From positions 4,624,501 through 4,688,500 of the forward strand of contig NZ_CP114786.1 in the NCBI RefSeq assembly GCF_027359675.1: a stretch of DNA of 64,000 nt, read 5' to 3'. A model generated the notes under the pieces. It was not told the DNA's origin. It ran no database searches and saw nothing but the letters and a program-made list of their open reading frames with translations. Shown here piece after piece: positions 11,520 to 28,831 of this stretch. The DNA is from Roseibium sp. Sym1 (lineage in GTDB: Bacteria > Pseudomonadota > Alphaproteobacteria > Rhizobiales > Stappiaceae). The stretch's first letter is position 1. Each line of letters begins with the position of its first letter. The translations under genes and the position numbers were made by a program.

Positions 11520-13595
11520 CTACCATGCGTTCACGCGCTTTTCCGGCGGCAGCCACATCGGATCACCTTCCTCGATGCCGAATGTATCGTAGAAGGCATC
11601 GACGTGCTGAAGCGCCGAGACGGCACGGTAGGAGCTCGGCGGATGGCCATCGCCGGCGACCAGCATGCGCAACAGTTGCTCCGAAGTCTTGGCCGTCCAG
11701 AACTGTGCCCAGCCGACAAAGCAGCGCTCGGCCGGTGACATTCCGTCGATCTCGACATTTTCTTCCGGGTGTTCGGCCAGATAGTCCTCCAGTGCTTCAT
11801 AGGCCAGGGTGATGCCGCCGACATCGGCCATGTTTTCGCGGACATTCAACTCGCCGTTGGCCTGCAGCCCGGGCAGGACCTCGAAGGCATTCGCCTGGTC
11901 GATCAGCTTCTGCGCCTCCGCGTCGAAGGCCTGCGCGTCTTCCGCCGTCCACCAGTCGCGGAAGTTGCCCTCCGCGTCGTAGCGGCGGCCTCCGCTGTCA
12001 AATCCATGGGTCATTTCGTGACCGATGACCGCGCCGATCCGGCAGAAGCGCAAGGGGGCGTCCATGTCGTGGCTGTAGGCCGGCGGCTGGGTGATGGCCG
12101 CGTTGACCTCGAAGCCGTTGATGGAAGGCGTGTAGGCGGCATTGATGACGATCGGCAGTGTCGACTGGGTGTTGAATTCCTCGTGTTCGACCGGCCTGGT
12201 GATCTTGTCGAGCATGCGGTTCAATGAAAAGGTGCCAAGATTGCGCATGTTCGCAACGGGATCGGCTCCGATCTCGAGACTGGAATAATCGACCCAATGG
12301 TCGGGATAGCCGACCTTTTAATAGAAGCTGTCGATCTTTTTCAGGGCCTCGGCGCGGGTATCTTCCGACAACCAGTCCCGAGTCTCGACCCGCTCGCGAA
12401 ACTTGGCATGAATGCGTTCGACCATGTCCAGAACTTCGGCCCTGGTTTCGTCGGAATAGTAGGTTTCGACAAAGAGTTTGCTGGCGGGCTGGCCGAGATT
12501 TTCTTTCAGGAGATCATACATGTGCTCCTGGCGGGGGCGATCCTGCCTGGCGCCGGTCAGGACAAGATTGAAGTCCTTGACCGGTTCCTCGAAGGCCGGG
12601 GTCAGGAACTGCTTGTATTTGTTGATGACACGGAAGGCGGCGTAGTCCTTCAGGTCGTCAAGCGGAGTTTCCTTCAGGAGTTTCGAGAGCACCGGCAGCG
12701 CGCGTGGTTCAAACAGATAGACCGTTTCAGGAATGTCAAAGCCGACAATCCTGAAATAGGCATCCAGGTCGAACTCCGGGACCTGGGCTTGCACTTCGTC
12801 GAAGCCCAGCTTGCCGTAACGGTTTCGAGGGTCATTGCCTTCTTCCGGCGTCAGCATGCCCTCGTAAAGTGCGCTTTCGATCCGGAGGGTGATATCCGCA
12901 ATCCGGTCGGATTCCTCTTCGCTGTAACCTTCAATTTTCATGATTTCCGTCACGTAGGTGCGGTACGCCGGTATGCGCGGGTCGCCCTCCTTGTTGCGTA
13001 ACAGTTCAAGATGATGGTCTTCGACGGCAAAGGAGGGACCGGCGGAGAAGATCGCGAAGTGCTTGCTGTCTTGCGGATCCGCGCTCGGTGCGAAAATCGC
13101 AAACAGGGCCGGACCCGAAGTACTTGCCTGTTCGGCCATGAACCGCGTCAGATCCTCAAGCGAGTGAATCTCGTCGATCCGATCCAGTTCAGCGCGGACC
13201 GGCTCGATCCCGGCGGCCTCCATCGCCTCGACATTCATGTAGGCCTTGTAGAAGTCGCCAACGAGTTGCGTGTTGCTTCCCTTCGGCGCGTCCGCGGATG
13301 TTTCGCCGGCTGTTTCGGCAACGATCGCAAGCTGCTTGATCAGCCGTTCGCCAATAATCGTAAAGATGTCCCAGCGCGCCTTGTCTTCCGGTCGCTCGAC
13401 CCGGTCAAGCCACTTGCCTGACGCGTAGCGATAGAAATCCTCTCCCGGATCAACGGAGGTGTCCATGTTGCTTGCCGAAAACTGCAGATCATCTGGAGTA
13501 AGTGGCGGCAAACCGGTGTCCTGTGCCTGCGAGGCGTGAGCCAGTACGGCAGTTGAGAGCACCACGGATGCAAGAAGAGAGGGGATGGGGTTCAT
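11520..13595 (-). pseudogene. M13-family metallopeptidase (PepO/neprilysin type) broken by an in-frame TAA
   Basis: Two open frames in the same phase, 13595-12318 and the remainder to 11520, read as one M13 protein interrupted only by TAA at 12318-12320. The first part (425 residues) has a signal peptide (MNPIPSLLASVVLSTAVLAHA) and the M13 N-terminal domain. After the stop the frame continues KVGYPDHW, a conserved M13 stretch, then VIGHEMTHGFD (zinc HExxH, about residue 526) and ENMADVGG (the ENxxD motif). The whole zinc domain is thus downstream of the stop. The rest is intact, so this is a very young lesion, a sequencing error, or a read-through case. The intact product would be a periplasmic zinc endopeptidase. 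Confidence 0.9.
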
Positions 13596-13879: not shown

Positions 13880-15373
13880 TCAGGTTCCGCAGAACGTCCG
13901 GTAGGGACCGAAACTGTCCGGTGCGGGGTCTGCATAAGCCTCTTGACCGGGCTGCTCCCTGAACGGGGACGCGAGCACCTGAAGCAGCGCCCTGACCGGT
14001 GCAAAGTCGCCATTCTCGGCGGCTTCCAGAGCCTCTTCCACCTTGTGGTTGCGCGGTATGTAGAGTGGGTTTGCACCATCCATGGCGGTCTTGACCTGCT
14101 CGGCAGGAAGTCCTTCCTGCGCACGTCTCCGGTTCCAGCGAGCCAGCCAGGGATCGATCGCTGTCGGGTCGACAAACAGGTCCCGCAACGGCTCTGGCGA
14201 CCCGGTTGCTGCATCGGATAGCCGGCGGAAACACAGCGTGTAATCGGCGCCCTGCTGGTGCATCACCGACAGAAGATCCTCGAACAGCGCCTGGTCGTCG
14301 CCGGTTTCGGTCTGCAGTCCGAGCTTGGCGCGCATGCCATCGAGCCAATGGGTCTTGTAGAGGTCTGGAAAGCGGCCGAGTTCAGCGCTGGCCAACTCCA
14401 CGGCCTTGTCGAGATCTTCGGGTTCGATCAGGGCCAGAAGAGCCTCGGCGAGACGGGCGAGGTTCCATTGCATGATCGCGGGCTGCCGGCCAAAGGCATA
14501 GCGGCCGCCATGGTCGATGGAACTGAACACCGCCGCCGGGTCATAGGCATCGATGAACGCGCAGGGGCCATAGTCGATGGTTTCGCCGGAAATGGCGGTG
14601 TTGTCCGTGTTCATGACCCCGTGAACGAAGCCAACGAGGACCCATCGGGCGACCAGTGCCGCCTGGCGCTCGATCACGCGCCGGAAGAGGTGGAGGTACC
14701 GATCCTCGGCGCCGGCAAGGTCCGGATCGTGACGTGTGATCGCGTAATCCGCGAGCTGGCGCACCTTGTCGGTCTCGCCGCGGGCGGCAAAATACTGGAA
14801 TGTGCCGACCCTGAGATGGCTGGCCGCGACGCGGGTCAGCACCGCGCCGGGTTTCGGGCCATCACGGTAGATGGTCTCTCCGGTGCTGACGGCGGCAAGC
14901 GCGCGTGTCGTGGGAACTCCGAGTGCATGCATGGCCTCGCCGAGGACATATTCCCGCAGGACAGGTCCGATCACGGCCTTGCCGTCGCCGCCGCGTGAGA
15001 ACGGCGTGGGGCCCGAGCCTTTCAGCTGGATGTCCCGCCGTTTGCCGTGCCGGTCGACCACCTCGCCGAGGAGAAGGGCCCGGCCGTCGCCAAGTTGAGG
15101 CGAGAAACCGCCGAACTGGTGTCCGGCATAGACCTGGGCCAGCGGAGAAGCGCCGTTCGGCAAACGGACACCCGCAAAGATTTCTGCACCTTTCGGCGTT
15201 TCGAGTGCGTCCGCCTCGAGGCCGAGCTCCTCAGCCAGCGCTCTGTTGAACAGCACCAGTTCGGGCGCGGGAACCTTCGCGCCTTCCCAGGTCACGTAAA
15301 ATCCGGGCAGGTCCCGGGCGTAGGAATTGTCGAACTCAAAAATGGAAGATGTGGCGGTCATGGCGTCTGGCAT
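13880..15373 (-). CDS. selO: SelO-family protein adenylyltransferase (YdiU/UPF0061)
   Basis: 497 residues from ATG 15373; ATG 15361 or 15391 are also possible, and the frame is open to 15499. It starts near FDNSYARDLPGFY and has QVYAGHQFGGFSPQLGDGRA, DIQLKGSGPTPFSRGGDGKA and GVPTTRALA, all hallmarks of SelO pseudokinases, plus HGVMNTDNT, where kinase-like catalytic residues sit. SelO transfers AMP from ATP to Ser/Thr/Tyr of target proteins, linked to oxidative stress. It ends YRTFCGT, a C-terminal ending seen in bacterial SelO with cysteine; no selenocysteine signal is implied. The upstream 370 bases are GC-rich with no clear gene. Confidence 0.93.
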   Translation of the reverse strand: MPDAMTATSSIFEFDNSYARDLPGFYVTWEGAKVPAPELVLFNRALAEELGLEADALETPKGAEIFAGVRLPNGASPLAQVYAGHQFGGFSPQLGDGRALLLGEVVDRHGKRRDIQLKGSGPTPFSRGGDGKAVIGPVLREYVLGEAMHALGVPTTRALAAVSTGETIYRDGPKPGAVLTRVAASHLRVGTFQYFAARGETDKVRQLADYAITRHDPDLAGAEDRYLHLFRRVIERQAALVARWVLVGFVHGVMNTDNTAISGETIDYGPCAFIDAYDPAAVFSSIDHGGRYAFGRQPAIMQWNLARLAEALLALIEPEDLDKAVELASAELGRFPDLYKTHWLDGMRAKLGLQTETGDDQALFEDLLSVMHQQGADYTLCFRRLSDAATGSPEPLRDLFVDPTAIDPWLARWNRRRAQEGLPAEQVKTAMDGANPLYIPRNHKVEEALEAAENGDFAPVRALLQVLASPFREQPGQEAYADPAPDSFGPYRTFCGT

Positions 15374-15865
15374 AACAGGTTTCTGCATAAGCATGTAGGG
15401 GGACCGGGCACTCCGGTCCAGTGGCTGGCTCCTTCTCAACATAACCGGGGCGCCTGCAATGCGTGTCCGCATCCTGTTGGGTGGTGGCGACGACGACAAA
15501 GGACATTGGTGTCTCCTCCGACGATGTCATCCGGCCGAGACTGTCGCGCGCCTCCAAGGCGCCGGGTCCGGGACCATTCTCGCCGGCACCCAGGCTGTCC
15601 GGGTCCTGGACAGTCAGCCGCAACACGGCCGCCTCCCTTGTGTTCCAGGTCCGGCCAAGGTCCCGGCACCGGAATTGCGCCATGGCATATCCGCAGGGCA
15701 GAAAGGTTTCGACATTCGGGGTTTGCCGTGGCTCACTCCCATTCAACGGATTCGCAGTTCCGCTTTGGGGATTTTTTACAAGGCGACACTATTTTTCGTG
15801 CCATTGTTCCAATCGGTCGACGGTTCGATCGCAGTCCAGTCCATTCGTAATTCAAGCACCAGCTC
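15374..15865. other. Intergenic region between divergent selO and the HMG-CoA reductase operon
   Basis: About 490 bases. Several overlapping open frames exist in GC-rich sequence, but none shows a domain or a convincing start. The last 100 bases before 15866 are more AT-rich and probably hold the operon promoter; no clear -35/-10 pair was found. Confidence 0.4.
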
Positions 15866-17140
15866 ATGCCGATCCCACCCAAAACGCTCCATTTTCTCAA
15901 GAAGCTCAAGTCGACCGCATCACCGGTGGAGATCGCCGCCCGGCTGAAACCGCGCGATGGTGCGCCGACACCGTTGATGACGCTGCCGAAACCGTCCGCC
16001 GCAGCCATCGAAAGGATCTGGGCACGGATGATCAAGGCCGGTGTAAAGCAATCCGCGCGGGCGGTGCTCGCCGATGAACGCACGCTCGCGGAGGCGGAAG
16101 CCTATGCCGGGAACATCGAGAACATGGTCGGCACGGTGAAGGTGCCGGTCGGCGTGGTCGGGCCGCTGCGGATCAACGGTGTTTTCGCCCATGATGATTA
16201 TTTCGTGCCGCTGGCGACCACGGAAGCCGCATTGGTGGCATCCTACGCCCGCGGCGCCAGGGCTGTCGGCAAATCCGGCGGTGTCAGCGTGGCAACGCTC
16301 GGGGAAGGGGTGCTCAGAACACCGGCGTTCCGGTTTGTCACGATTGCCGAGGCAGGCCTTTTTGTCGAATGGGCGGTGTCGTCGGTCCAAGGCCTGATCG
16401 CGGCAGCGGAAGCAACCACGCGCCACGGCAAACTGCTTTCCATCGATCCCGTTATCGACGGCGAGATCGTTTTCCTGATGTGCCGCTATGAAACCGGCGA
16501 TGCCTCCGGCCAGAACATGGTGACCTTCGCGACGGAGGCGTTGTGCGCGCACGCCCTGGAACAGTCGCCCGTGCAGCCCCGGTCCTGGTTCCTGGAAGCG
16601 AATTTCTCCGGCGACAAGAAGGCAAGCTTTCTTGGAACCATGCTCGGCCGCGGGCGCCGGGTGACCGCGCAGGTCGACATGCCGCGCGAGGTGGTCGAAA
16701 GCGTGCTCGGCGCCTCGATCGACCAGGTCCTGGAATATGGCCGCATCGCCAATCTCGGCGCGCTGATGACCGGGCAGGTGGGCGCCCAGGCCCACTTCGC
16801 CAATGGCCTCGCCGCGCTTTATCTGGCGACCGGCCAGGACGTCGCCTGCGTGGCCGAGTCGGCTGTCGGGTTTACCCGGATGGAACAAAGTGAAACCGGC
16901 CTTCTGGTGACGGTGACCTTGCCGAACCTGATCCTGGGTACCGTGGGGGGCGGCACGGGCTTGCCGTCGCAGGCGGCCGGGCTCGACATTCTTGGCCTGA
17001 AAGGCGGTGGAAACGCTACGGCGCTGGCCGAAGTCGCCGCTGCGCTGTGCCTGTGCGGTGAACTTTCCCTGACGGCGGCCGTTGCCGGCGGGCAGTTCGG
17101 CAGTGCGCACAAGCGTCTTGCCCGGGGCGGCAAGTCGTGA
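15866..17140 (+). CDS. Hydroxymethylglutaryl-CoA reductase (class I-like), first gene of the seven-gene operon
   Basis: 424 residues. All expected catalytic positions are visible: ENMVG with Glu85, KVPVGVVGPL (92-101), DASGQNM (212-218), SGDKK with Lys251/252, GQD with Asp325, GTVGGGT (358-364), and a C-terminal AHKRLAR with His415. It should reduce HMG-CoA to mevalonate with NAD(P)H. Class I-like motifs suggest a biosynthetic rather than degradative enzyme. No other mevalonate-pathway gene is nearby, and most alphaproteobacteria make isoprenoids by the MEP route. Mevalonate may therefore be a building block here, or the downstream genes may use it. Its TGA overlaps the GTG of the next gene by four bases. 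The ribosome-binding site is weak. Confidence 0.9.
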   Translation: MPIPPKTLHFLKKLKSTASPVEIAARLKPRDGAPTPLMTLPKPSAAAIERIWARMIKAGVKQSARAVLADERTLAEAEAYAGNIENMVGTVKVPVGVVGPLRINGVFAHDDYFVPLATTEAALVASYARGARAVGKSGGVSVATLGEGVLRTPAFRFVTIAEAGLFVEWAVSSVQGLIAAAEATTRHGKLLSIDPVIDGEIVFLMCRYETGDASGQNMVTFATEALCAHALEQSPVQPRSWFLEANFSGDKKASFLGTMLGRGRRVTAQVDMPREVVESVLGASIDQVLEYGRIANLGALMTGQVGAQAHFANGLAALYLATGQDVACVAESAVGFTRMEQSETGLLVTVTLPNLILGTVGGGTGLPSQAAGLDILGLKGGGNATALAEVAAALCLCGELSLTAAVAGGQFGSAHKRLARGGKS

Positions 17141-18069
17141 GCGTGCGCCCGGAGCAGGACATGTCCCTGCCGGCGCGGCTGTGGAGATATCAGGCCGAGC
17201 GGTTTCCGCTGGTGCAGACCGTTCCTCTTCTCGGCGCCTTTTCCGCCGCTTCGGTGACGGCCTCGGCCCGGCTCGCCGACCGGCCGCTGCCCGGTGTCAC
17301 TGCATATCTGGTGGCTTTCCTGATCGTGATGGTCTTTTTCTGGCAGATGCGCGCACTGGACGAGGTCAAGGACGCGGACACGGACCGCCGCTACAGGCCC
17401 GAGCGGCCGATCCCGCGCGGGCTGGTGTCCCTGAAGCTGATCCTGTCGCTGGCGGGCATTGCGGCGGTTCCCGCTGCCCTTGCCGCCTTTGTCCTGTCGC
17501 CGTTCGTGTTGGTTCTCGTCATCATCGCCTGGGTCTGGCTCGCCCTGATGAGCGTCGAGTTCTTTGCATCGGAGTTTCTGCACCGTTCACCGGCGCTCTA
17601 CCTGGTCTCGCACATGGCGATCATGCCGCTGATCGACCTCGTACTGACCGGATGCGAGTGGGTGCCGGCCGGGTCTGTTCCGAGCGGGATCTGGACCTTC
17701 CTCCTGATGAGTTTCGCCAATGGCTGCGTCATCGAGTTCGGGCGCAAGATCTGGGCGCCCGAAAACGAGCGCGAGGGCGTGGAGACCTATTCCTCCGCCT
17801 GGGGAATTCACCGCTCATTGATCGCGCTCGCGGTGATGACGGCTATCGCCTTCCTCGCGCTCGTCATCTGCGGCGTCTACCTGCAGCGTCCTCTGGTCAC
17901 GGCGCTGTGCGGCCTGGCGGTCCTGTTGCCATTTGCCTGGACCCTTTTTGATTTCGCGCGCAATCCCGATCTAAAACGCCAGAAACGTCTTGAAACCCTG
18001 TCGGGGGTCTGGGTGCTGGCCTGTTATCTTGCGGCTGCGTTCGCGCCGTCGCTGGGAGGGGCATCGTGA
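17137..18069 (+). CDS. UbiA-superfamily prenyltransferase-like membrane protein
   Basis: 310 residues starting with GTG in a GTGA overlap with the HMGR stop. About eight hydrophobic segments are present. The loop MRALDEVKDADTDRRYRPER (71-90) matches the first Asp-rich loop of UbiA enzymes, which binds Mg-prenyl diphosphate, in a DExxDxxxD-like form, and RPIPRG follows as in UbiA proteins. The second Asp motif is not obvious; ENEREGVETYSSAWG (about 209-223) lies where it is expected. It may attach a prenyl chain to a polar acceptor at the inner membrane. Operon position after HMGR supports isoprenoid chemistry, but the substrates are unknown. Confidence 0.8.
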   Translation: MSVRPEQDMSLPARLWRYQAERFPLVQTVPLLGAFSAASVTASARLADRPLPGVTAYLVAFLIVMVFFWQMRALDEVKDADTDRRYRPERPIPRGLVSLKLILSLAGIAAVPAALAAFVLSPFVLVLVIIAWVWLALMSVEFFASEFLHRSPALYLVSHMAIMPLIDLVLTGCEWVPAGSVPSGIWTFLLMSFANGCVIEFGRKIWAPENEREGVETYSSAWGIHRSLIALAVMTAIAFLALVICGVYLQRPLVTALCGLAVLLPFAWTLFDFARNPDLKRQKRLETLSGVWVLACYLAAAFAPSLGGAS

Positions 18070-20519
18070 CCGGGCCGATCAGGTTGGATGAGGCCGTTGC
18101 CGCGTCGGCGCAAATTGTCGGCGGCAAGGCCTTCGTGCTGGCGGAACTTGCTGCAAGCGGCTTCAAGGTGCCACCGTTTGTCGTGATCCCGCCCGAGACC
18201 TTTCGGGACGGCCGTCTCGATCCGGACAGCCGCGCTGCACTTGCCGAAGCCGTCGCTGCGCTGTCGGGATCGGCATTTGCCGTGCGCTCGTCCGGGCGCG
18301 CCGAGGACGGGGCCGCCGATTCCCATGCCGGACAGTTCCTGACACTGCTCAAGGTCGCAGCGGACGGCGTTCCGGAGGCCGCCGAAAGGGTTTTTGCCTC
18401 CGGGCTGGCGGACAGCGTGACCGCCTACCGGAGTGCGCGCGGCCTGAGCGAAACGGACATGCCTTCGGTCATCGTCCAGGTTATGATCGCGGCCCGGGCG
18501 GCCGGGGTTGCCTTTGCCGGCGATCCGGTCAGCGGGCGGCGCGACCAGGTCCTCGTTTCGGCGACGGCGGGTCTCGGGGAGGCCCTGGTTTCTGGTGAGG
18601 TCAGCGGCGAGACCTGGCGGTTCTCAAGACCAGAATTCGAAACCCTCGAAATGCCGGCTGGCGACTGTGCGCTCGGCGAGGAAGATGCCCGAAGGGTCGC
18701 GAAACTGTGCATGGACGTCACCGCCGCCAGAGGTGCGCCGCAGGACATCGAATGGGCCTTTGACGAGAAAGCGGTGGAGCCGCATCTTCTCCAGGCCCGT
18801 CCGATCACGACACAGCTTCTGCCGGAAGGAGCGACGGAGACCCGGCTGCTGGTGTTCGACAACTCCAACATCGTCGAAAGCTATCCGGGGCTGGTGTCAC
18901 CGCTGACCTTCAGTTTTGCGGTGACGGCCTATGCGCGGGTCTATCGCACGTTCCTCGACATGATCGGCATTCCGGAGCCGGTGGTGCGGGCGCACGGGCC
19001 GGAACTTGCCAACATGCTCGCGCGTATCGACGGGCGCATGTACTACAACCTCGGCAACTGGTACCGGCTGCTGTCGCTGCTGCCGTTCTTCTCCAGCAAC
19101 CGGCAGCACATGGAAACCATGATGGGGGTGTCCGAACCGCTGCCCGATGAGGTGATGGAGGGGATCGCGCCCTCCAGGGGGTTCACTTCGGCGGCCCGGA
19201 TGGTTGCCGGGCTCGCCCTGGCGGCCCTGCGCCTCAAAAAGACCCGGGCCGGATTCATGAAACGCATCGGCGAGACCGTGCCGCCGCGTGATACGTGGAG
19301 CGGTTTGAACCGGCGCCCGCTTTCGGAACTTGCCGGAGAATTCCGCCGCGTCGAGCTGGCGCTTCTGGATGACTGGGACGCGCCGATCGTCAATGATTTC
19401 ATGTGCATGATGGCCTTTGGCGGCTCGCGTGCACTGCTTGAGAAATGGGCGGGCGATGCCGGTCTGGCACTGCATAACGACGTCATGATCGGGCAGGGCG
19501 ATATCGTGTCGGCGGAACCAGCACGTCTGATCCGGCAGATGGGCGAGGTCGTGCGGGCGACACCGGGCGCCGCGGAAACGCTGGCCGAAGGCGACCGGGA
19601 CGGGATTTTCGCTCTGCCGGAGCTCGGGCCGTTGCTCAGGGACTATCTGGACCGCTTCGGGGATCGTCGCATCGGCGAGTTGAAACTGGAGGAGCCGACC
19701 CTTGACGAAGAACCGGGCGCGCTGTTCCGGGCCGTGCTGGCCTCGGCGTCCCACACGGCGGAAAAACACGAGCGCACCGCCCCGGACGCCGAACTGAAAC
19801 GGCTATTCCGAAGCCGGCCGCTTCGGCGCTTTCTCGCCGGGCGCGTGCTTTCCTATGCCAAGGCCCGCGTGCGTGACCGGGAGAACCTGCGCTTCGAGCG
19901 CACGCGCATCTTCGGTTACGCCAGGCGGGTGTTTCGCGCCATGGGATCTTCGCTTGCCGCGACCGGCCATCTGGAGACCGCGGACGATGTCTTTTTCCTC
20001 ACGCTGGAGGAGCTGCTTGCCATTGCAGAAGGTGCGGCCCCCGGTGACAACATCGCCGGCCTGGTAGCGCTGCGCCGTGGCGAGCAGGACGCGGCAAGGC
20101 GTCTGCCGGACCCGCCGGAGCGGATCCTGGTGCGCGGATCGGTCATCGACCGTGCACGGCGCCTGGCAACCACGCAGGAGGCCGATCCGGGCGAAACCGA
20201 AACCGAACGCCGCGGCACTGCCTGTGGCGGCGGCGTTGTGACAGGCATTGCCCGTGTCATCCACGATCCTGCGGAACAGCAGGTCCAGGCGGGCGAGATC
20301 CTCGTTGCCCGCCACACCGATCCGGGCTGGATTTCCCATTTTGCCAATGCCGCTGCGGTGATCGGCGAGCGCGGCAGCGTGCTCTCCCACTCTGCCATCG
20401 TCTCGCGGGAACTCGGCATCCCCTGCGTGGTCGCGGTTCGAGACGCGTGCAACTGGATCGAGACGGGTGACAGGGTCGAGGTCGACGGTTCCAACGGCTG
20501 GGTGAAGAAACTTCCATGA
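18066..20519 (+). CDS. PEP-synthase/rifampicin-phosphotransferase-like enzyme (ATP-grasp plus swivelling His domain)
   Basis: 817 residues, GTG start in a GTGA overlap. The N-terminal PPDK-type ATP-grasp is marked by VGGKAFVLAELAASGFKVP (18-36) and FAVRSSGRAEDG (71-82). The C-terminal phosphohistidine domain has GSVLSHSAIVSRELGIPC with His775. The total length and the absence of a recognisable PEP/pyruvate TIM barrel make it resemble rifampicin phosphotransferase, where ATP's beta-phosphate passes via His to a small molecule. The middle region (about 280-680) is probably the acceptor domain and matches nothing I recognise. In this operon the acceptor could be an alcohol intermediate rather than an antibiotic. 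Confidence 0.84.
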   Translation: MTGPIRLDEAVAASAQIVGGKAFVLAELAASGFKVPPFVVIPPETFRDGRLDPDSRAALAEAVAALSGSAFAVRSSGRAEDGAADSHAGQFLTLLKVAADGVPEAAERVFASGLADSVTAYRSARGLSETDMPSVIVQVMIAARAAGVAFAGDPVSGRRDQVLVSATAGLGEALVSGEVSGETWRFSRPEFETLEMPAGDCALGEEDARRVAKLCMDVTAARGAPQDIEWAFDEKAVEPHLLQARPITTQLLPEGATETRLLVFDNSNIVESYPGLVSPLTFSFAVTAYARVYRTFLDMIGIPEPVVRAHGPELANMLARIDGRMYYNLGNWYRLLSLLPFFSSNRQHMETMMGVSEPLPDEVMEGIAPSRGFTSAARMVAGLALAALRLKKTRAGFMKRIGETVPPRDTWSGLNRRPLSELAGEFRRVELALLDDWDAPIVNDFMCMMAFGGSRALLEKWAGDAGLALHNDVMIGQGDIVSAEPARLIRQMGEVVRATPGAAETLAEGDRDGIFALPELGPLLRDYLDRFGDRRIGELKLEEPTLDEEPGALFRAVLASASHTAEKHERTAPDAELKRLFRSRPLRRFLAGRVLSYAKARVRDRENLRFERTRIFGYARRVFRAMGSSLAATGHLETADDVFFLTLEELLAIAEGAAPGDNIAGLVALRRGEQDAARRLPDPPERILVRGSVIDRARRLATTQEADPGETETERRGTACGGGVVTGIARVIHDPAEQQVQAGEILVARHTDPGWISHFANAAAVIGERGSVLSHSAIVSRELGIPCVVAVRDACNWIETGDRVEVDGSNGWVKKLP

Positions 20520-21607
20520 CACAATCCATTGACCAGCGCGCCAGTTTCGACGCCATTCGCTACGCCCGGGCCTGGGAGGATGCCGACGTGCTTCTGGGCG
20601 CCATGCATCCGCGGCCCGGCCAGCGTTTCCTGTCGATCTGCGCGGCCGGGGACAATGTGCTGTCCCTGTTGCTGCTCGACCCGAAGAAGATTGTCGCGGC
20701 GGACCTGTCGCCGGCGCAGATCGCCTGCCTGAAGCTGCGCATCGCAGCCTTTCGTGCGCTCACCCATCCGGAGTTCCTCGAGCTGATCGGCGTCCTGCCG
20801 TCGACGCGGCGAGGGGAACTGCTTTCCCGCGTGACCGCCGACTGCGATCCGCAAACCCGTTCGTTCTGGCAGGGGCTTGCGCCTGATGTCGACCGGTTCG
20901 GTGCCGGAAATGTCGGCAAGTTCGAGAACTATTTCCGCCTTTTCCGCCGCTATATCCTGCCGCTGATCCATTCTCGAAAAACCATCGAAAGCGTTTTTGT
21001 CGCGCGCGAGGAAGCCGCGCGCGGTCGTTTTTTCGAGGACCGCTGGAACAATGGCCGCTGGAAGCTGGCGACCAGCCTGTTCTTTTCGCGAACGGTGATG
21101 GGTTGGCTCGGCAGGGATCCCGCCTTCTTCGATCATGTCGAGGGCAGCGCCGGAGCCCATGTCCGGCGCAAGGTCCGCTTCGCCGCGGTCGACCAGGACC
21201 CGAGCCGGAACCCCTATATGCGCCATATCCTGACGGGCACGAATGACGGGGTGCTGCCGACGGCGTGGCGACCCGAGAATTACGATACGATTGCCGCCCG
21301 CGTTGACCGGATCACTCTGGTGCAGGGACCGGTTGACCAGGTCGAGACGGGCGCGTTCGACGGCTTCAATCTCTCCGACATCTTCGAGTACATGTCCCTG
21401 GAAGAGACCGCGCAGGTCTATGGCCGGTTGCTGCAGCGGGCCGCGCCGGGTGCTCGCTTCGTTTACTGGAACATGATGGCGCCGCGTTCCGCGCCGGCGG
21501 CGTTCGGTGACCGGGTCCACCGATTGCCGGAGTTGGAGGCGCGAATGAAGCTGGTCGACAAGGCGTTCTTCTATGCCGACCTCGTCATCGAGGAAGTGGC
21601 CCCGTGA
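20516..21607 (+). CDS. DUF3419 family protein, BtaA-like SAM-dependent aminocarboxypropyl transferase
   Basis: 363 residues, ATG start in an ATGA overlap. SICAAGDNVLSLLLLDPKKI (40-59) followed by VAADLSPAQIACLKLR is the SAM-binding segment of DUF3419/BtaA proteins. FDGFNLSDIFEYMS (about 281-294) and RFVYWNMMAP near the C-terminus are family features. BtaA moves the 3-amino-3-carboxypropyl group of SAM to diacylglycerol, giving the homoserine head group of betaine lipids. The partner methylase BtaB is not in this window, so the product may stay unmethylated or differ from a betaine lipid. Whether the acceptor is diacylglycerol is unknown. Confidence 0.85.
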   Translation: MTQSIDQRASFDAIRYARAWEDADVLLGAMHPRPGQRFLSICAAGDNVLSLLLLDPKKIVAADLSPAQIACLKLRIAAFRALTHPEFLELIGVLPSTRRGELLSRVTADCDPQTRSFWQGLAPDVDRFGAGNVGKFENYFRLFRRYILPLIHSRKTIESVFVAREEAARGRFFEDRWNNGRWKLATSLFFSRTVMGWLGRDPAFFDHVEGSAGAHVRRKVRFAAVDQDPSRNPYMRHILTGTNDGVLPTAWRPENYDTIAARVDRITLVQGPVDQVETGAFDGFNLSDIFEYMSLEETAQVYGRLLQRAAPGARFVYWNMMAPRSAPAAFGDRVHRLPELEARMKLVDKAFFYADLVIEEVAP

Positions 21608-22905
21608 CCGCGCAGGTTCTGATTGCCGTTGCCTCGGTGATTGCGTTGTTCGCCCTGGCGGCGATCATTCGCAAGATTGCCGAGCGGTTTGTGATCGGTG
21701 CCGAAAGCCAGCGCAAGGTGGTTCATGTCGGCGTCGGCGTGCACGCGATGGTACTGCCGCTTTTGCTGACCCGGGAGGGTTTCCTGGTCTTTGCAGGTCT
21801 GGCGGCTGCGGCGCTTCTGGTGCTGCGCATTCCCGGGATCGCATCCGAGGGCATCGGCGCGTCACTGCATTCGGTGGAACGCCGCTCCTGGGGCGACTTC
21901 CTGTTCCTTGTGGCCGTCACCGTGCTGTTCGTGCTCTCGCCCGGCCATCCCGCGCTCTACATCTTGCCGATCGCGGTCCTGACCCTGTCCGATGCCGCCG
22001 CCGCTCTCGTTGGTACGGAATACGGCCGGCTGCGCTTCGGCGACGGCGACAGGGTCAAGAGCGTCGAGGGCAGCGTCGCCTTCTTCGTCGTGACCTGGAT
22101 CACCGCCGTGGTGATCATGCAACTGGCAACGGAGATCCCGCGACCCAACGTGATCCTGCTGGCGACGCTGGTGTCGGTGTTTGCGACCTATGTCGAGGCC
22201 GACAGCTGGCGTGGTCTCGACAATCTCTTTGTCCCGGTCGGCATTTTCGTGCTGCTGAGCACCTGGGCGCAGTCCGCACCCGTTGTTCTGACGGCGCTGA
22301 CCGTCGGCTGGCTTGTATTGCTGCTGCTGGCCAGGCTTTCGGCGTCGCATCTCGGCATGACGCCCCATGCCGCGCGGTCCGCTGCCGTCGCGCTGTTCCT
22401 GTCCGCCATCGTGGCTTCGCCGATCAATTCGGTGATGCCCGTGCTGGCCTTTGCTGCCGCACTTTTGGCTCGCTCCACGGAAGGTGACACGGAATCGATC
22501 CTGGATTTCGTCGCAACACTGATCATGACGGGCGTTGCCTGGTTGGTCATCGGCAATGTCTTCGGTGTCAACGCCATTGCCTTCTACGCGGCGAGTTTCG
22601 TGGGTATCGGCGCCGGCTACGCGACCTTTGCCTTACGCGAGAGCCGGTTCAGGTCTCCCGGGAGCGCCGCCGCGCTGGCCGTCTTTCTGCTGGCCTACTG
22701 GTTGCTGCTGCCCGGCATGATCGGCTTCATGAACTGGGTTCCGCAACTGCCGCTGTTTGCCGTTGTGGCGACGGTGAGCACCATGGTGGTGCTCGTCGAA
22801 ATGCTGTGCCCCCGGACCTGGCAGGCGCGGCCGCCAGGCTTGCGGCTTGCCATTTCCGCTCTCGTGATGCTCGTTCCCGTCTATCTCTATGAGGTCCTTT
22901 CATGA
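21604..22905 (+). CDS. Phytol/dolichol kinase-like CTP-dependent membrane protein (VTE5/SEC59/DGK1 class)
   Basis: 433 residues, GTG start in a GTGA overlap. About a dozen hydrophobic segments. RKVVHVGVGVH (37-47), LTLSDAAAALVGTEYGR (127-142 region, Asp130) and KSVEGS (152-157) are the conserved elements of VTE5/dolichol kinase/DGK1 lipid kinases, which phosphorylate a long-chain alcohol or diacylglycerol using CTP. The protein is about twice the length of the minimal kinase: residues 210-433 add another membrane block (SPINSVMPVLAFAAALLAR and beyond) of unclear role. In this operon it probably phosphorylates an isoprenoid or lipid alcohol. A phosphatidate cytidylyltransferase annotation is the main alternative. 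Confidence 0.78.
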   Translation: MTAQVLIAVASVIALFALAAIIRKIAERFVIGAESQRKVVHVGVGVHAMVLPLLLTREGFLVFAGLAAAALLVLRIPGIASEGIGASLHSVERRSWGDFLFLVAVTVLFVLSPGHPALYILPIAVLTLSDAAAALVGTEYGRLRFGDGDRVKSVEGSVAFFVVTWITAVVIMQLATEIPRPNVILLATLVSVFATYVEADSWRGLDNLFVPVGIFVLLSTWAQSAPVVLTALTVGWLVLLLLARLSASHLGMTPHAARSAAVALFLSAIVASPINSVMPVLAFAAALLARSTEGDTESILDFVATLIMTGVAWLVIGNVFGVNAIAFYAASFVGIGAGYATFALRESRFRSPGSAAALAVFLLAYWLLLPGMIGFMNWVPQLPLFAVVATVSTMVVLVEMLCPRTWQARPPGLRLAISALVMLVPVYLYEVLS

Positions 22906-23699
22906 CGTTGCCGAAGATTCACCGTGACGTGCCCTCCTGGAACGGGCGGCGCACCGCATCCATCGGCTGCGGGACGTTCGCAGACGCGGAGGTCGGCGCC
23001 ATCTTCCTGAGAGAGGCTTGCGACAAGCTGCGTGGTGAAGGTTTCGAGGCCGTTGTCGGGCCGATGGACGGTTCGACCTGGGGCGCCTACCGCCTGCCGG
23101 TCTGGTCAGACGGTAGCCCGGAATTTTTCATGGAGCCTTCCGCCGGTCCGCATGATCTCGCTGCCTACGAGGCGGCCGGGTTCGAGGTTGCCGAACTGCA
23201 TGTCTCGTCGACGGCCGCGCCCGGATCCCGCGGTTATGCGGGCCTGGTGCCCGGCCTCGGCGTCGACAGCTGGGACGGCACCGAGCCGGAAAAGCTGCTC
23301 GCCAGCGCGCACGCGCTGGTCATGGCGGGTTTTGCGAAAACCCCGTTCTTCACACCGGTGCCGGAAGAGATGTTCATCGCGCGCTACGCACCGCTGCTTG
23401 CCCATGCCGATCCGCGCCTGATCCTGCGGGCAACCGACGAGGCCGGTGCGGTCAAGGGGCTGACGCTCGCCTTTCCCGATCCGATGCGCAAGGGCGCGGT
23501 GGTGCTGAAGACCTATGTCGGCGCGGTGCCGGGCGCCGGCCGGGTGATGGCTGACCGCGTGCACGAACTCGCGGGCGAACTCGGCTATCGTGAAGTGATC
23601 CACGCCCTGATGCGCGAGGGCATCGCCTCGGAGGCCCAGAGCCGCAAGTTCGGCGGCACGGTCTTCCGCCGCTATGCCCTGATGGGACGGGTCCTTTGA
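22902..23699 (+). CDS. GNAT-like acyltransferase, unknown substrate
   Basis: 265 residues, ATG in an ATGA overlap. The N-terminal half has VGPMDGSTWGAYRLP (about 48-62), resembling the VGP...YR segment of a group of long GNAT-fold proteins, followed by FFMEPSAGP. The C-terminal half has a beta-rich region and GAVVLKTYVGAVPGAGRVMA, where acetyl-CoA pyrophosphate binding would be expected. The GNAT assignment rests on this layout only. It could N- or O-acylate a small metabolite made by the operon, using the acyl group activated by the next gene. Confidence 0.55.
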   Translation: MTLPKIHRDVPSWNGRRTASIGCGTFADAEVGAIFLREACDKLRGEGFEAVVGPMDGSTWGAYRLPVWSDGSPEFFMEPSAGPHDLAAYEAAGFEVAELHVSSTAAPGSRGYAGLVPGLGVDSWDGTEPEKLLASAHALVMAGFAKTPFFTPVPEEMFIARYAPLLAHADPRLILRATDEAGAVKGLTLAFPDPMRKGAVVLKTYVGAVPGAGRVMADRVHELAGELGYREVIHALMREGIASEAQSRKFGGTVFRRYALMGRVL

Positions 23700-25120
23700 A
23701 CCTCATCGAGGACTTCCTTGCCGAGGCGGTCCGCCGGCCGGAGCGCACCGCGATCATCGACAAGGCCGGCACGGCGATTTCCTATGGCGATCTTGAGACC
23801 CGTTCGGCCCGGCTCGCCGCCGGATTTGCCGCGAAGGGGATCGGAGAAGGCGACCGGGTGCTGATCGGGTTGTTTCCCGGTCTGGACCTTTATGCCGGGC
23901 TTGCGGCCCTGTGGCGGCTGGGAGCGGTGGCGGTTTTTCCCGAACCGGCCATGGGCCTTGCCGGGTTCCGGCATGCGGCTGGGGCAACCCGGCCGAAAGC
24001 GCTGCTCGCGGCAACGCTGGTCGGTCTGATCGCGCGTATTCTGCCGGAGACGCGGCGCATTCCCGTGCGCCTGTCGCCTTCGGGGGACTGGCCGGAGGGG
24101 CGAAGTGACTGCGCCCCACGCGGGGAAAACGATCCGGCACTGATCTCCTTCACCAGCGGCAGTACCGGTGAACCGAAAGCCATCGAGCGCTCGCATGGCC
24201 TGATGCGGGCCCAGCACGCGGCGCTAGCGCCGTTGATTGCCTCGGATCGCGACGAGATCGACATCGTCGCCTTTCCCGCCTTTGTGCTCACCTGCATCGG
24301 CCACGGCACCACCGCCGTGATGCCAAACTGGAACCTGCGACGGCACGACCGCATGCCGCCTGAGGCCCTTGTGAAGCTCGTCAAGGCAACCGGCGCGACC
24401 CGGCTGCTGGTGCCGCCGGTGGTTGTCTCGAGGCTCATCGGCACAGACCTGCCGGAGACCGTACGCAGGGTGATGACGGGTGGCGGTCCGCTTTATCCGG
24501 ACGTTGCGCGGCGCTTCCTGGACGCCCATCCTGGCATCGGGCTGACCAATGTCTACGGTTCCACGGAAGCCGAGCCGATTGCCCATGCACATCTGGAGTG
24601 TTTGAGCGACACGGACTGGGAGGTAGCTGCCTCCGGCGGCGGGCTGCCGGTCGGAAGGCCGGTTGCGGAGGCGTCTGTGAAATTCGTCGACGATGAAATC
24701 CTGGTCTCCGGCCCGCATGTCAATCGCGGCTATCTCGATCCGGCGCGCAATGCGGAAACCAAGCTGATCGAGGGCGATACCGTCTGGCACCGTACCGGCG
24801 ACGCCGGCCGTCTCGACGATCAGGGGCGTCTCTGGCTGCTCGGCCGCCACGGCGCGGCGACGGACGGCCTGTTCGCTTTTGCTGTCGAGACCGCCGCCCG
24901 CCTGTGGCCGGGCGTCACCGCCGCCGCCTTCGCGGTGGATGGCAAGGGCAGACCGGTCCTGTTTCTTTCGGGCGATACTGCCAACCTGCCGGACTGGCGT
25001 GAAAGAGCCGAGGCGCTCGGTGCGCTGGACGTGCTTTGCGTTGATGCCATCCCGATGGACCGTCGGCACCGCTCGAAGCCCGATACACGGCAGTTGCTGA
25101 AGCGGTTCGGCCGGGGGTAG
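23696..25120 (+). CDS. AMP-forming acyl/aryl-CoA synthetase-type ligase, last gene of the operon
   Basis: 474 residues with a TTG start in a TTGA overlap with the previous stop; such a start is rare but agrees with the operon's pattern. Motifs of the ANL superfamily are all present: SFTSGSTGEPKA (151-162), NVYGSTEAEP (about 283-292), WHRTGDAG (about 364-371) and, near the C-terminus, RRHRSKPD with the likely adenylation lysine. It should adenylate a carboxylic acid and form a thioester or pass it to a nucleophile. It is shorter than typical fatty acyl-CoA ligases. The substrate cannot be read; a fatty or isoprenoid acid would suit the neighbours. Confidence 0.88.
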   Translation: MNLIEDFLAEAVRRPERTAIIDKAGTAISYGDLETRSARLAAGFAAKGIGEGDRVLIGLFPGLDLYAGLAALWRLGAVAVFPEPAMGLAGFRHAAGATRPKALLAATLVGLIARILPETRRIPVRLSPSGDWPEGRSDCAPRGENDPALISFTSGSTGEPKAIERSHGLMRAQHAALAPLIASDRDEIDIVAFPAFVLTCIGHGTTAVMPNWNLRRHDRMPPEALVKLVKATGATRLLVPPVVVSRLIGTDLPETVRRVMTGGGPLYPDVARRFLDAHPGIGLTNVYGSTEAEPIAHAHLECLSDTDWEVAASGGGLPVGRPVAEASVKFVDDEILVSGPHVNRGYLDPARNAETKLIEGDTVWHRTGDAGRLDDQGRLWLLGRHGAATDGLFAFAVETAARLWPGVTAAAFAVDGKGRPVLFLSGDTANLPDWRERAEALGALDVLCVDAIPMDRRHRSKPDTRQLLKRFGRG

Positions 25121-25267: not shown

Positions 25268-26020
25268 TCAGTTCACGACGTCCATGCCGGCTTGGCGAAA
25301 GGCCGCTATCTCTTCTGCCGAGGCCGCCTTGTTTGTCACCAGCCTGCCGATCTCTCCAGTTTCCCAGGACTGAACCCTGCTGGTTTTGCCAAGCTTGCTC
25401 TGGTCGGCCAGGATGACTGTCTGTTGGGCCTGTGCCGCCATGGCGATGGAGATTTCGGCTTCCTGCAGGTCGTAGAAGAACGCGCCCTTGGTCGGATGCA
25501 CGGCGACCGGAGCCGAGAAGCACAGGTCGACCCGGAACCGGCGGATCTCGGACAGGGTAAGCTCGCCCACCGTTGCCGGGACGTCGGCGGCCATCCGGCC
25601 ACCGAGCAGCAGCACATCCTTGCCTGCCCCCTGCAGCGTGGTGGCAATATCGATCGAGTTGGTGATCACAGACAGATCCGACAGCTTGGCCAGTTCACGG
25701 GCAAACAGGGCTGTGGTGGTGCCCGCGTCCACAAGGATTGTCTGCCCGGGCTGGATCAGACCGGCGGCCTTGCGGGCAATCTCGGACTTTGCCCGTATCT
25801 GTTTCGTCATCCGTTGGCGGAAGGGCTCCTCCGACCGCGGCTCTGGCAGGACCGCGCCGCCGTGGACGCGGTTGACCTGTCCGGATTGCTCGAGGTCCAG
25901 CAGGTCGCGGCGCACGGTCTCGCGAGAGACGTTCAGCATTTGCGCCAGGTCGTTGGCGCTCACCTGCTGGCTTGCGTTCAGCATCGACAGGATGAGCCGG
26001 TGACGTTCCTTTGCCCACAT
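25268..26020 (-). CDS. DeoR/GlpR-family transcriptional regulator
   Basis: 250 residues. MWAKERHRLILSMLN, then helix-turn-helix (about 19-45, VSANDLAQMLNVSRETVRRD) and GQVNRVHGGAV are the DeoR N-terminal signature. The C-terminal DeoRC sensor domain has ILVDAGTTTALFARELAKL, a sugar-phosphate-binding loop in this family. ATG 26020 overlaps the TGA of the permease gene, so it is the last gene of the ABC transporter operon and probably represses it until a phosphorylated sugar or polyol accumulates. Confidence 0.9.
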   Translation of the reverse strand: MWAKERHRLILSMLNASQQVSANDLAQMLNVSRETVRRDLLDLEQSGQVNRVHGGAVLPEPRSEEPFRQRMTKQIRAKSEIARKAAGLIQPGQTILVDAGTTTALFARELAKLSDLSVITNSIDIATTLQGAGKDVLLLGGRMAADVPATVGELTLSEIRRFRVDLCFSAPVAVHPTKGAFFYDLQEAEISIAMAAQAQQTVILADQSKLGKTSRVQSWETGEIGRLVTNKAASAEEIAAFRQAGMDVVN

Positions 26021-27705
26021 CAGGCCGACCCCTTGATCCGGTTGCGGTGTCCCATCAATGCCAGCGTTCCCTTCATGCCCAGGAGCGCGATGCTGACGAC
26101 AGCCATCACGCAGGTGGAGAAGGCCGCCGCCTGCGAGGTCAGGCCGGCATCGTCAAGCCGCATGATCGTGACTGCCGCGACGCTCAGGTCCGGTGTGGTG
26201 AGGAAGACGACCGCCGACAGGGTCACCATGGATCGCATGAACAGGAAGTAGAACACCGAGACGAGCATGGGCGCAATGAAGGGCGCGACGATATCGACGG
26301 CTGTTCGCGCAAGGCCTGCGCCAAGGCTGTCCGCCGCTTCCTCAAGTGCGCGGGGCAACTGGCGGAAGCCGGTCATCACCGTCAGAAAGCCCTGTGTGTG
26401 ATAGTGGTAGAAGTTGACGATCGCGATGAGGGCGGCCGTGCCATAGAGAAGGTAGAGCGGCGTCGCCGTTGAATTGAAGGTCAGGATATAGGCAAGCCCC
26501 AGAACCATCCCGGGCACCGCGGCCGGCATGGCGGCCAGCATCTGGATCGGCTGGGCCACACTGCGTGGAAGGCGGCGCAGGCCCAGGCACAGCAGGAAGA
26601 CGGCAAGGGTTCCACCGGCCGCTGCCATCAGCGATATCACGATGGTTATCCAGAGCGAGGAATAGCCACCGGCGAGCGTGATGTCGTAGTGCTTGAACGA
26701 CAGGGCCATGTTGTAGGGCCACAGGGTGACGAAGCTTGCGTAGACGACGATGCCGATGACCGCGACGATCCCGGCGCAGATCACCAGCGACAGGAAGGCC
26801 ATGACCGTGTCGCGGACCGGCGCGAAGGATGGCCGGTACGGTACCTGGCCGGCGGGCTGTCCATGCTGTTGCCGTTTCATCGCCTGGCGCTCGATGGCGT
26901 AGGAAATGACGGTCGGCAGCAACAGCATGATGCCGACCACGGCCCCCATGTTGAAGTTCCGCTGTCCGACCACCTGGGAGTAGATTTCGGTTGCCAGAAC
27001 CGAATAGTCCCCGCCGATCACCGCAGCGTTGCCGAAATCGGTGATCGTGATCGTGAAGCAGACGAATGCCGCGTTCAGGATCCCGAAGCGTGCCGCGGGC
27101 AGGGTCAGGTCGCGGAACTGGCGTGACGGCGAGGCGCCGATGACTTCCGCTGCTTCGTAGACGCGGGCATCCAGCAGGACCAGCGCCGCTCCGATGATCA
27201 TCACCGCCTGTGGCAATGCGTAAAGCGTGTTGGCGATCAGCAGACCCCAGAACCCGTAGATCTCGATCTCGACACCCAGGGCGCGGCTGAGAACACCGTT
27301 GCGCCCCAGAAGAAAGATAAGCCCGAGTGCCTGCACCAGGGACGGTGCCAGCAGCGGCAGGACAATCACACCGCGGATCAGCCACTTGCCCCGGAAGGCG
27401 CAGCGATGGAGCCCGTGCGCGATGACGAAACCCAGGAAAACGCTGAGGAGCGTCGTCGCGCCTCCCATGATCAGGGAATGTTCGGTCGCGCGCCAGAAAC
27501 CCGTCGAGCCCAGAACCCGCGTGTAGTTGGCAAGCCCATAGCCGTCATCAACCGTCAGGGAGCGCAAGAACACGATCGCCATCGGGTAGAGGAAAAAGAG
27601 GACGAGCCCGAGCAGCGGCAGTCCGACACAGACAAGCGTCAGCAGTCGGTCCGCATCCGGTTGTCTGCTGCGCACGGACGTGATCATCGGCTCCACAGCG
27701 CTCAT
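26020..27705 (-). CDS. ABC transporter permease, fused double-domain type (Fe3+/2-aminoethylphosphonate class)
   Basis: 561 residues with about 12 membrane segments and two BPD_transp_1 halves. EAAEVIGASPSRQFRDLTLP (about 192-211) and EEAADSLGAGLARTAVDIVAP (second half) are the EAA loops that dock the ATPase. Fused permeases of this shape occur in Fe3+ (FbpB/SfuB) and phosphonate (PhnU2) importers. The neighbouring binding protein favours the latter class. It is overlapped by four bases with the ATPase gene upstream and by one base with the DeoR gene downstream. Confidence 0.9.
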   Translation of the reverse strand: MSAVEPMITSVRSRQPDADRLLTLVCVGLPLLGLVLFFLYPMAIVFLRSLTVDDGYGLANYTRVLGSTGFWRATEHSLIMGGATTLLSVFLGFVIAHGLHRCAFRGKWLIRGVIVLPLLAPSLVQALGLIFLLGRNGVLSRALGVEIEIYGFWGLLIANTLYALPQAVMIIGAALVLLDARVYEAAEVIGASPSRQFRDLTLPAARFGILNAAFVCFTITITDFGNAAVIGGDYSVLATEIYSQVVGQRNFNMGAVVGIMLLLPTVISYAIERQAMKRQQHGQPAGQVPYRPSFAPVRDTVMAFLSLVICAGIVAVIGIVVYASFVTLWPYNMALSFKHYDITLAGGYSSLWITIVISLMAAAGGTLAVFLLCLGLRRLPRSVAQPIQMLAAMPAAVPGMVLGLAYILTFNSTATPLYLLYGTAALIAIVNFYHYHTQGFLTVMTGFRQLPRALEEAADSLGAGLARTAVDIVAPFIAPMLVSVFYFLFMRSMVTLSAVVFLTTPDLSVAAVTIMRLDDAGLTSQAAAFSTCVMAVVSIALLGMKGTLALMGHRNRIKGSA

Positions 27706-28742
27706 GCGTGGGTCCCGGCCGGCTCGCGGGCCATGTCGTCAGCCACCCAGGTGCAGGCCTCCGGCGGTATGTTCACATTGACGCGGTCGCCTTCGCGATA
27801 GGGATTGCTTCCGTGGGTCTCCACGACCAGCGGGCCAATTGCGCTGTCCACCTCGAGCCGCCGCAGATTGCCGAGGAAACTGATACTTCGCACGGTGGCG
27901 CTGCCTTCCTGCGCCGGGGTCAGGCCGATCTGTTCCGGGCGTATGCAGGCAACATGTGCCGCGTCCGTCTCCTCCGGTCGATTTGCCATCAGATCCGGAA
28001 ATGCGCGACGGATCGGGTCGGCGGGGACGAGGTTGCTGATCCCCATGAAATCCGCGACGAAGCGCGTTGCCGGACGGTGATAGAGATCTTCCGGCGTTCC
28101 AGCCTGCACCACGACACCGTGGTTCATGCAGATGATCTTGTCCGCCAGCGCCAGCGCCTCTTCCTGGTCGTGCGTCACCATCAGGGTCGGAATGCCGAGC
28201 GAACGCTGAACCTGGCGGATCTCGCCGCGAAGTTCCGCCCGCACCTTCGCGTCCAGCGCGGACAGGGGTTCGTCCAGCAGCAACACGCGCGGGTCGACGG
28301 CGATGGCCCTGGCCAGCGCGATGCGCTGCTGCTGTCCACCAGACAATTGACCGGGAAACTTGTTAGCGACCTGTGGCAACTTCACCAGTTCCAAAAGCTC
28401 GGTCACGCGCTGCGAGATCTCGGGTCGCGGCGTGCCACGTATCTTCAACCCGTAACCGATGTTCTCGGCCACCGTCATGTTGGGAAAGAGCGAGTAGGAC
28501 TGGAACACGATCCCGAAACCCCGCTTGCGTGCGGGAAGGTTCGAAAGCGCTGCCCCCTCCAGAAGGATTTCGCCGTTGTCCAGATCCGACAGCCCTGCGA
28601 TCAGCCGCAGGAGCGTCGTCTTTCCGCAGCCCGACGGGCCCAGCAGGCAGACGAATTCCCCACGGTCGATCTCGATCGAGACATTGTCGAGCGCAGTGAA
28701 GGACCCGAAGGTCTTGGTGGCGTTGCGGACGGTCAGATACAC
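27702..28742 (-). CDS. ABC transporter ATP-binding protein (PotA/FbpC/PhnT class)
   Basis: 346 residues. Walker A GPSGCGKTT (35-43), Q-loop FQSYSLFPNMTV, signature LSGGQQQR, Walker B LLLDEPLSALD and the switch His in VTHDQEEA are all intact. The C-terminal third (about 240-346) is a TOBE-like regulatory domain, as in the polyamine/iron/phosphonate importers. It powers the fused permease encoded just downstream with a 4-base overlap. Confidence 0.94.
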   Translation of the reverse strand: MYLTVRNATKTFGSFTALDNVSIEIDRGEFVCLLGPSGCGKTTLLRLIAGLSDLDNGEILLEGAALSNLPARKRGFGIVFQSYSLFPNMTVAENIGYGLKIRGTPRPEISQRVTELLELVKLPQVANKFPGQLSGGQQQRIALARAIAVDPRVLLLDEPLSALDAKVRAELRGEIRQVQRSLGIPTLMVTHDQEEALALADKIICMNHGVVVQAGTPEDLYHRPATRFVADFMGISNLVPADPIRRAFPDLMANRPEETDAAHVACIRPEQIGLTPAQEGSATVRSISFLGNLRRLEVDSAIGPLVVETHGSNPYREGDRVNVNIPPEACTWVADDMAREPAGTHA

Positions 28743-28800
28743 GGCGGGTCAGGTCTCCTGTCATGGGGACGCGCGCCTCCGGTGAAGGCCCGCGCGCAGG

Positions 28801-28824: not shown

Positions 28825-28831
28825 GGAACGA

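Follow-up and report, generated by a model that had tools for sequence, protein, structure and literature searches.

What do seven overlapping genes from different enzyme families make together? The question is raised by a block on the forward strand of the 64,000-nucleotide stretch of Roseibium sp. Sym1 DNA analyzed here (hereafter the window), whose genes are called g1 to g7 in gene order. The database names of members, which are dolichol/phytol kinase, UbiA, phosphoenolpyruvate (PEP)/pyruvate-binding, DUF3419, and hypothetical, hint at no joint pathway. Moreover, the match of g1 to 3-hydroxy-3-methylglutaryl-CoA (HMG-CoA) reductase could wrongly credit the genomes having the block with mevalonate synthesis. 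We found that the seven-gene set and its order recur in several phyla. Such a fixed set of seven enzymes almost certainly yields one product. As to its nature, we tentatively favor, as one possibility among several, that the seven genes are a self-contained biosynthetic cassette, transferred as a unit, which would make an N-acylated amino-lipid or a lipid-like amino metabolite, and not mevalonate. HMG-CoA reductase is a drug-target family, and here it appears with a uniformly altered acyl pocket.

The six junctions within the block are 4-base overlaps reading GTGA, GTGA, ATGA, GTGA, ATGA, and TTGA. These were reported in an earlier note on this DNA and are confirmed by the open reading frame (ORF) coordinates and the junction letters. 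The same note took them as strict translational coupling. A 4-base overlap is the most frequent kind in bacterial operons, and six successive ones are consistent with coupling but do not prove it. The conserved gene content is stronger evidence for a unit. A search with g5 matched 129 proteins, and the 120 listed include proteins from Roseibium, Sphingomonas gei, Taklimakanibacter, and Roseiarcus, as well as one from a Bacteroidota metagenome-assembled genome (MAG). An alignment of 22 g5 homologues with the g5 of the window then served as the query against a species-level genome collection. The best 80 of 118 candidates, 79 loci found via g5 plus the window, make up the locus set, in which cassette genes were called by iterated profiles at E < 1e-20. 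In these loci chosen by g5, g1 is present in 69, g2 in 71, g3 in 78, g4, g5, and g6 in all 80, and g7 in 75. The full set occurs in 68 of the 80 loci; in 67 of them the genes are collinear and share one strand, and 66 are tight. Hence the neighborhood is conserved, the opposite of which the earlier note had named among the outcomes that would refute its proposal. Each of the 12 loci with an incomplete set reaches the end of its contig. In L044 the contig end does not explain the lack of g7. L074 (Krumholzibacteriia) is without g1 and g7, and g2 sits between g5 and g6 there, so that no judgment on its g1 can be made. A Gemmatimonadetes MAG (L078) has the same seven genes in the rotated order g6-g7-g1-g2-g3-g4-g5, and in L073 a gap of ~7 kb separates g5 from g6. 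Among the hosts of the full set are Alphaproteobacteria and Gammaproteobacteria, the latter including Halomonas, as well as Gemmatimonadetes, Opitutales, and Trueperaceae. For the six junctions in gene order, a 4-base overlap could exist in 57 of 69, 53 of 70, 31 of 76, 74 of 80, 62 of 78, and 45 of 75 examined cases, respectively. These counts show that tight packing is conserved while the exact overlap is not universal. That independent housekeeping genes were packed together by chance has practically no probability. Five of the seven genes do belong to broad Pfam families, but the set stays together in 68 of the 80 loci, which come from several phyla, and this refutes chance packing.

Table 1. 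Coordinates of the cassette genes and of other features mentioned in the text (positions in the window unless a locus is given).
Feature	Locus	Position	Strand	Assignment
g1	window	15866..17140	+	enzyme with the fold of class I HMG-CoA reductase; presumably reduces a thioester with NADPH; acyl pocket changed
g2	window	17137..18069	+	UbiA-fold membrane transferase; Pfam PF01040 (1e-14)
g3	window	18066..20519	+	dikinase-type phosphotransferase with ATP-grasp, central, and mobile His domains; PF01326 and PF00391
g4	window	20516..21607	+	DUF3419 (BtaA-like) S-adenosylmethionine (SAM)-dependent transferase; presumed 3-amino-3-carboxypropyl transferase; PF11899 (5e-52)
g5	window	21604..22905	+	hydrophobic, presumed integral-membrane protein (basis: homologue names and alignment)
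g6	window	22902..23699	+	tandem GNAT acyltransferase; far relative of a GNAT family often near serine palmitoyltransferase (Spt)
g7	window	23696..25120	+	AMP-forming acid ligase; PF00501 (5e-46)
SelO gene	window	13880..15499	-	borders the block
DeoR regulator gene	window	25268..26020	-	borders the block
Group beginning with DeoR-type regulator	window	25268..29911	-	regulator, then further ORFs
ORF	window	11520..12248	-	presumed C-terminal part of M13-type metallopeptidase
ORF	window	12318..13595	-	presumed N-terminal part of M13-type metallopeptidase
Rotated cassette	L078	1213..11305		g6-g7-g1-g2-g3-g4-g5
Plasmid cassette	L120	2..8507		end of g1 and g2-g7
Alpha-oxoamine-synthase/Spt-type ORF	L024	13794..15050		downstream of cassette
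Alpha-oxoamine-synthase/Spt-type ORF	L054	18988..20265		downstream of cassette
Non-cassette HMG-CoA reductase	L117	8989..10266		probably catabolic class II type
Non-cassette HMG-CoA reductase	L118	9081..10364		probably catabolic class II type
Non-cassette HMG-CoA reductase	L119	9478..10755		probably catabolic class II type
Other DUF3419 cluster	L121	1764..8155		different cluster, which may be undescribed

The distribution of the cassette is patchy. Of 37 genomes from the same genus, 6 have a cassette-type g4; one of them is that of the window, and the other five carry all seven genes. The two Halomonas loci nest among Alphaproteobacteria in a midpoint-rooted tree (branch supports not inspected) built from the concatenated alignments. 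The small genome of Bartonella apihabitans (L009, 2.6-Mb chromosome) has the whole cassette on a long branch of this tree. Roseinatronobacter sp. S2 carries the end of g1 and g2 to g7 (L120) on NZ_CP121116.1, a 137-kb plasmid typed as non-mobilizable, and the start of the circular record cuts g1. There, g2 to g7 are annotated as UbiA, PEP/pyruvate-binding, DUF3419, hypothetical, hypothetical, and AMP-binding. Pairwise distance correlations among all seven genes range from 0.80 to 0.90 in the 68 full loci, as plain vertical descent would predict likewise. A search with g6 of 398 genomes of the phylum gave 26 matches, and no further cassette was recognized among these genomes. The match is nearly full length only in the genome of the window (residues 12-277 of 278); the one in G317 covers residues 29-254, and the other 24 lie within residues ~20-209, in ORFs of 380-487 amino acids. 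As judged by titles and abstract openings in the open-access literature, subscription papers being outside the scope, the seven-gene set was not found described.

The first enzyme of the cassette clearly belongs to the class I HMG-CoA reductase family (PF00368, 2e-103, 346 bits), and its closest solved structure is the archaeal 6hr7. According to a review of human HMG-CoA reductase, the catalytic residues are E559, K691, D767, and H866, the ten HMG-pocket residues include S684, K735, and L853, and the NADP site includes M655 and M657 (PMC7503714). The catalytic tetrad is retained in every g1 with a letter at the position (67/67, 69/69, 68/68, and 68/68, respectively), and so are R590, D690, K692, and N755. 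Seven of the ten HMG-pocket residues are likewise retained in all members with a letter. The acyl pocket is nevertheless changed in all members. Specifically, all 69 members have Glu in place of S684 (Glu244 in the window) and one of Ala, Ser, and Thr in place of K735 (Ala295 in the window), while the reference set has Ser and Lys, respectively, in 120 of 120, as do the human and plant enzymes. This reference is narrow, comprising 120 listed of 8000 matches, by name mostly methanogens, plus two eukaryotic fragments, human and plant. Further replacements are Gln for N750 (68/68), Ala for G560 (67/67), and Ile for L853 (59/68). At the NADP site, M657 is replaced by Gln and M655 by Ala, Ser, or Gly (68/68 each). 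Hence, g1 resembles class I HMG-CoA reductases in family, tetrad, and much of the NADP site, but differs from them at S684, K735, K722 of the CoA pocket, and M655/M657.

According to the earlier note, the seven enzymes, HMG-CoA reductase among them, could make an isoprenoid alcohol. On this reading, a working HMG-CoA reductase would feed mevalonate into isoprenoid synthesis and the other genes would use the prenyl product. Family membership and the retained catalytic residues speak for it, but none of the six cassette-positive same-genus genomes, the sole hosts examined, yielded a HMG-CoA synthase, a mevalonate kinase, or a mevalonate-diphosphate decarboxylase, whereas all six have dxs. A match to HMG-CoA synthase is present in the cassette-negative relative G003. 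Because S684 and K735 are lost and the pathway partners are absent from the six genomes, g1 is not credited with mevalonate supply, which was rejected as the main explanation and is in our view very unlikely. g1 probably makes mevalonate no longer. Its uniformly altered acyl pocket predicts a new substrate, which may be an acyl thioester other than HMG-CoA with, possibly, a cationic group near Glu244. HMG-CoA reductase itself was found in 9 of 17 same-genus genomes searched, and three of these are of another type, scoring 45-51 bits to the g1 profile. The reductases at L117, L118, and L119 lie beside transporter-like ORFs, presumably TRAP transporter genes, and probably belong to a mevalonate-use locus.

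We then inspected g4 and g6, the candidates for aminocarboxypropyl transfer and acylation. The PF11899 match of g4 spans residues 9-358 of 363, and its predicted structure (predicted local distance difference test score 92.0) has the Rossmann core of SAM-binding enzymes. The host genome holds a second, btaA-like DUF3419 gene adjoining a methyltransferase gene, which together look like a btaAB pair. A different DUF3419 gene, scoring 126 bits to the g4 profile, lies on the Rhizobium rhododendri plasmid NZ_CP117268.1 (L121) in a row with ORFs that we take to be a ketoacyl-synthase and an epimerase; this cluster may be likewise undescribed. Like g5, g6 of the window has no Pfam or NCBIfam match at E 0.1, and the predicted structure of g6 is a tandem GNAT fold, in support of the GNAT label. 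It aligns with the Spt-associated GNAT family in hhalign at a probability of 99.6 and an E of 1.2e-23. Among 23 neighborhoods of g6 relatives, 11 have a clear Spt nearby, including L116, the source of the query, whose Spt passes the NCBIfam cut-off. From this gene neighborhood, the GNAT family akin to g6 is read as the bacterial ceramide synthase (bCerS); in the open-access literature, nothing was found on bCerS as a GNAT or acetyltransferase. The kinship of g6 with the ceramide-synthase family strengthens an N-acylating role.

The remaining four genes are g2, g3, g5, and g7. Pfam bears out the calls made earlier for g1, g2, g3, g4, and g7, as the predicted structure does for g6, while the kinase call for g5 leans on homologue names. 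g2 scores 54.9 bits against Pfam UbiA, above the cut-off of 34.2. It shares with UbiA prenyltransferases, such as digeranylgeranylglyceryl phosphate synthase, the Pfam family and the first Asp-rich motif, D75xxxD79xxxD83, which is retained in 71 of 71 and covered by the match to PDB 6m31 (E 0.004). The second Asp-rich motif of these enzymes is not seen in g2. No Asp is conserved in that region, where the alignment to the solved UbiA 6m31 is weak (score 22), and E200xxR203K204...E211xxGV is found instead (68-69 of 69-70), with R203 and K204 in 69 of 70 each and E211 in 68 of 69. g3 retains the catalytic His775 of its mobile His domain in 75 of 75. Similar to rifampin phosphotransferase and the RedH/PigC dikinases, it combines an ATP-grasp domain with the catalytic His domain and has no Pfam match to the PEP-binding barrel. 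Different from them, g3 stays under all named NCBIfam cut-offs (PRK06241.2-2, RedH, PigC, and RIF phosphotransferase, the last with 210.5 bits against a cut-off of 999), and its central region has conserved motifs of its own. Its best PDB rows form the 5fbs/5hv1 group, titled phosphoenolpyruvate synthase, which we take to be rifampin phosphotransferase. The g5 homologues bear JGI or NCBI names of dolichol, phytol, or diacylglycerol kinases. They share the near-invariant motifs KSxEG and SWxGxDNxFxP, while the C-terminal half is less conserved. We assume these motifs to be those of CTP-using lipid kinases, an assignment that no library match backs. Both the UbiA label of g2 and the phytol-kinase label of g5 are at the level of fold or name only. 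The nearest NCBIfam models of g7 are PRK09274 and olefin beta-lactone synthetase, both under cut-off, and it has no solved relative at E 1e-20. Its C-terminal Lys461 is retained in 72 of 72, and its conserved motifs presumably form the adenylation signature.

An N-acylated amino-lipid would be the simplest joint product of these roles, the product and the order of steps being inferred. g2 and g5, the latter named a polyprenol or diacylglycerol kinase, would assemble a core lipid alcohol or phosphorylate it, and to this core g4 would attach a 3-amino-3-carboxypropyl (homoserine-type) group donated by SAM. g7 would adenylate a carboxylate and load it as a thioester, which g1 would reduce with NADPH to an aldehyde or alcohol. 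g3 may move a phosphate from ATP, leaving AMP, onto a hydroxyl or, like its relatives RedH and PigC, drive a condensation. The free amine would be acylated by g6, in the way that bacterial ceramide synthase acylates long-chain bases. The homoserine-type transfer and acylation in the pathway proposed earlier are consistent with this scheme, and the acylation has gained from the kinship of g6. A more specific version seems rather doubtful to us, in which the cassette makes a novel class of sphingolipid-like "homoserinol lipid", a mimic of ceramide phosphate formed without Spt, with g1 as an aminoacyl-thioester reductase. In it, g4 would put the 3-amino-3-carboxypropyl group of SAM on the lipid alcohol from g2/g5, and g7 would adenylate the new carboxylate. 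g1 would reduce this to a primary alcohol, with Glu244 binding the ammonium and Ala295 opening the pocket for the lipid tail; g6 would N-acylate the amine, and g3 would phosphorylate the alcohol.

Two other products deserve weighing against the amino-lipid. If the product were a soluble or secreted natural product, such as a signal or antibiotic bearing a tail of prenyl or acyl type, and not a membrane lipid, the patchy, exchangeable distribution typical of specialized metabolism would fit. So would the P450-type ORFs within 6 kb of 8 of the 80 loci (L010, L012, L015, L017, L020, L021, L023, and L030), four of which (L010, L012, L017, and L030) have a sulfotransferase-type ORF as well. Pfam backs one representative of each type, and both are possible tailoring enzymes. 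Against this stand the absence of any further widely conserved gene within 6 kb of the cassette in the 80 loci, and hence of a conserved exporter, and the presumed membrane proteins g2 and g5 together with the ceramide-synthase kinship of g6, which favor a lipid. The largest flanking cluster, present in 14 loci, is an ABC ATPase of a common kind, and Hyphomonadaceae-type neighbors make up others of the larger clusters. We regard such a natural product as somewhat unlikely, though it is the strongest of the rivals. Less likely again is that g1 turns HMG-CoA of leucine breakdown into mevalonate or a near analogue, the acid being a building block and not an isoprenoid precursor, which g7 would activate, g3 phosphorylate, and g6 couple to an amine. 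Beta-lactone synthetases, found among the nearest families of g7, act on beta-hydroxy acids, and the seven retained pocket residues of g1 also agree with such a route. S684 and K735, however, which are replaced in all members, are themselves HMG-pocket residues.

Several points also weigh against the amino-lipid cassette. No separate line of evidence suggests a membrane lipid. Even the carrier of the thioester is in doubt, because no carrier protein is seen among the seven proteins and the CoA pocket of g1 differs as well: S565 and R568 are retained, but K722 is kept in only 2 of 69 and N567 in 3 of 69 (gaps included). For g4, the search for folds and solved structures returned generic SAM folds only, and its identity to other DUF3419 proteins of same-genus genomes is ~25-33%. 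The presumed kinase role of g5 draws on database names and a presumed kinase motif; its 23 members gave no relevant Pfam or NCBIfam match at E 0.1, nor was a relevant PDB match found. Of the neighborhoods of g6 relatives, 12 of 23 are without a clear Spt, including L137 with an uncounted 159-bit match. Finally, picking the loci by g5 makes g5 present by construction, and half-cassettes without it would be missed.

The cassette was also compared with known clusters. Like the btaAB operon of betaine lipids, it has a DUF3419/BtaA-type SAM-dependent transferase for the presumed amino-acid-adding step. Unlike that operon, it adds six other enzymes and has no BtaB relative among all ORFs of the 80 loci (phmmer with the candidate BtaB of the host, E 1e-15), and the btaA-like and methyltransferase genes of the host lie apart from it. 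With the ceramide cluster spt-bcerS-cerR it shares the dual-GNAT acyltransferase family and an AMP-forming ligase. It differs from that cluster in that none of the 80 loci has a relative of CerR (E 1e-15) and no Spt lies inside, in its shorter and distant g6, and in its HMG-CoA-reductase-family reductase instead. Alpha-oxoamine-synthase/Spt-type ORFs (171-193 bits) lie downstream of the cassette in 2 of the 80 loci, L024 and L054. The ebo cluster is a conserved, mobile cassette as well, containing the UbiA-like EboC, and its product is unclear. g2 scores 26 bits against an EboC cut-off of 250, and the remaining ebo genes differ from those of the seven-gene cassette.

In the window, the block is bordered by opposite-strand genes for SelO and a DeoR regulator. 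The ORFs that follow the regulator are separate from the cassette, and we take them to encode an ABC transporter permease, an ATPase, and a substrate-binding protein. On the other side, two minus-strand ORFs, interrupted from 12248 to 12318, presumably represent one M13-type metallopeptidase, whose split looks like a pseudogene or an assembly error.

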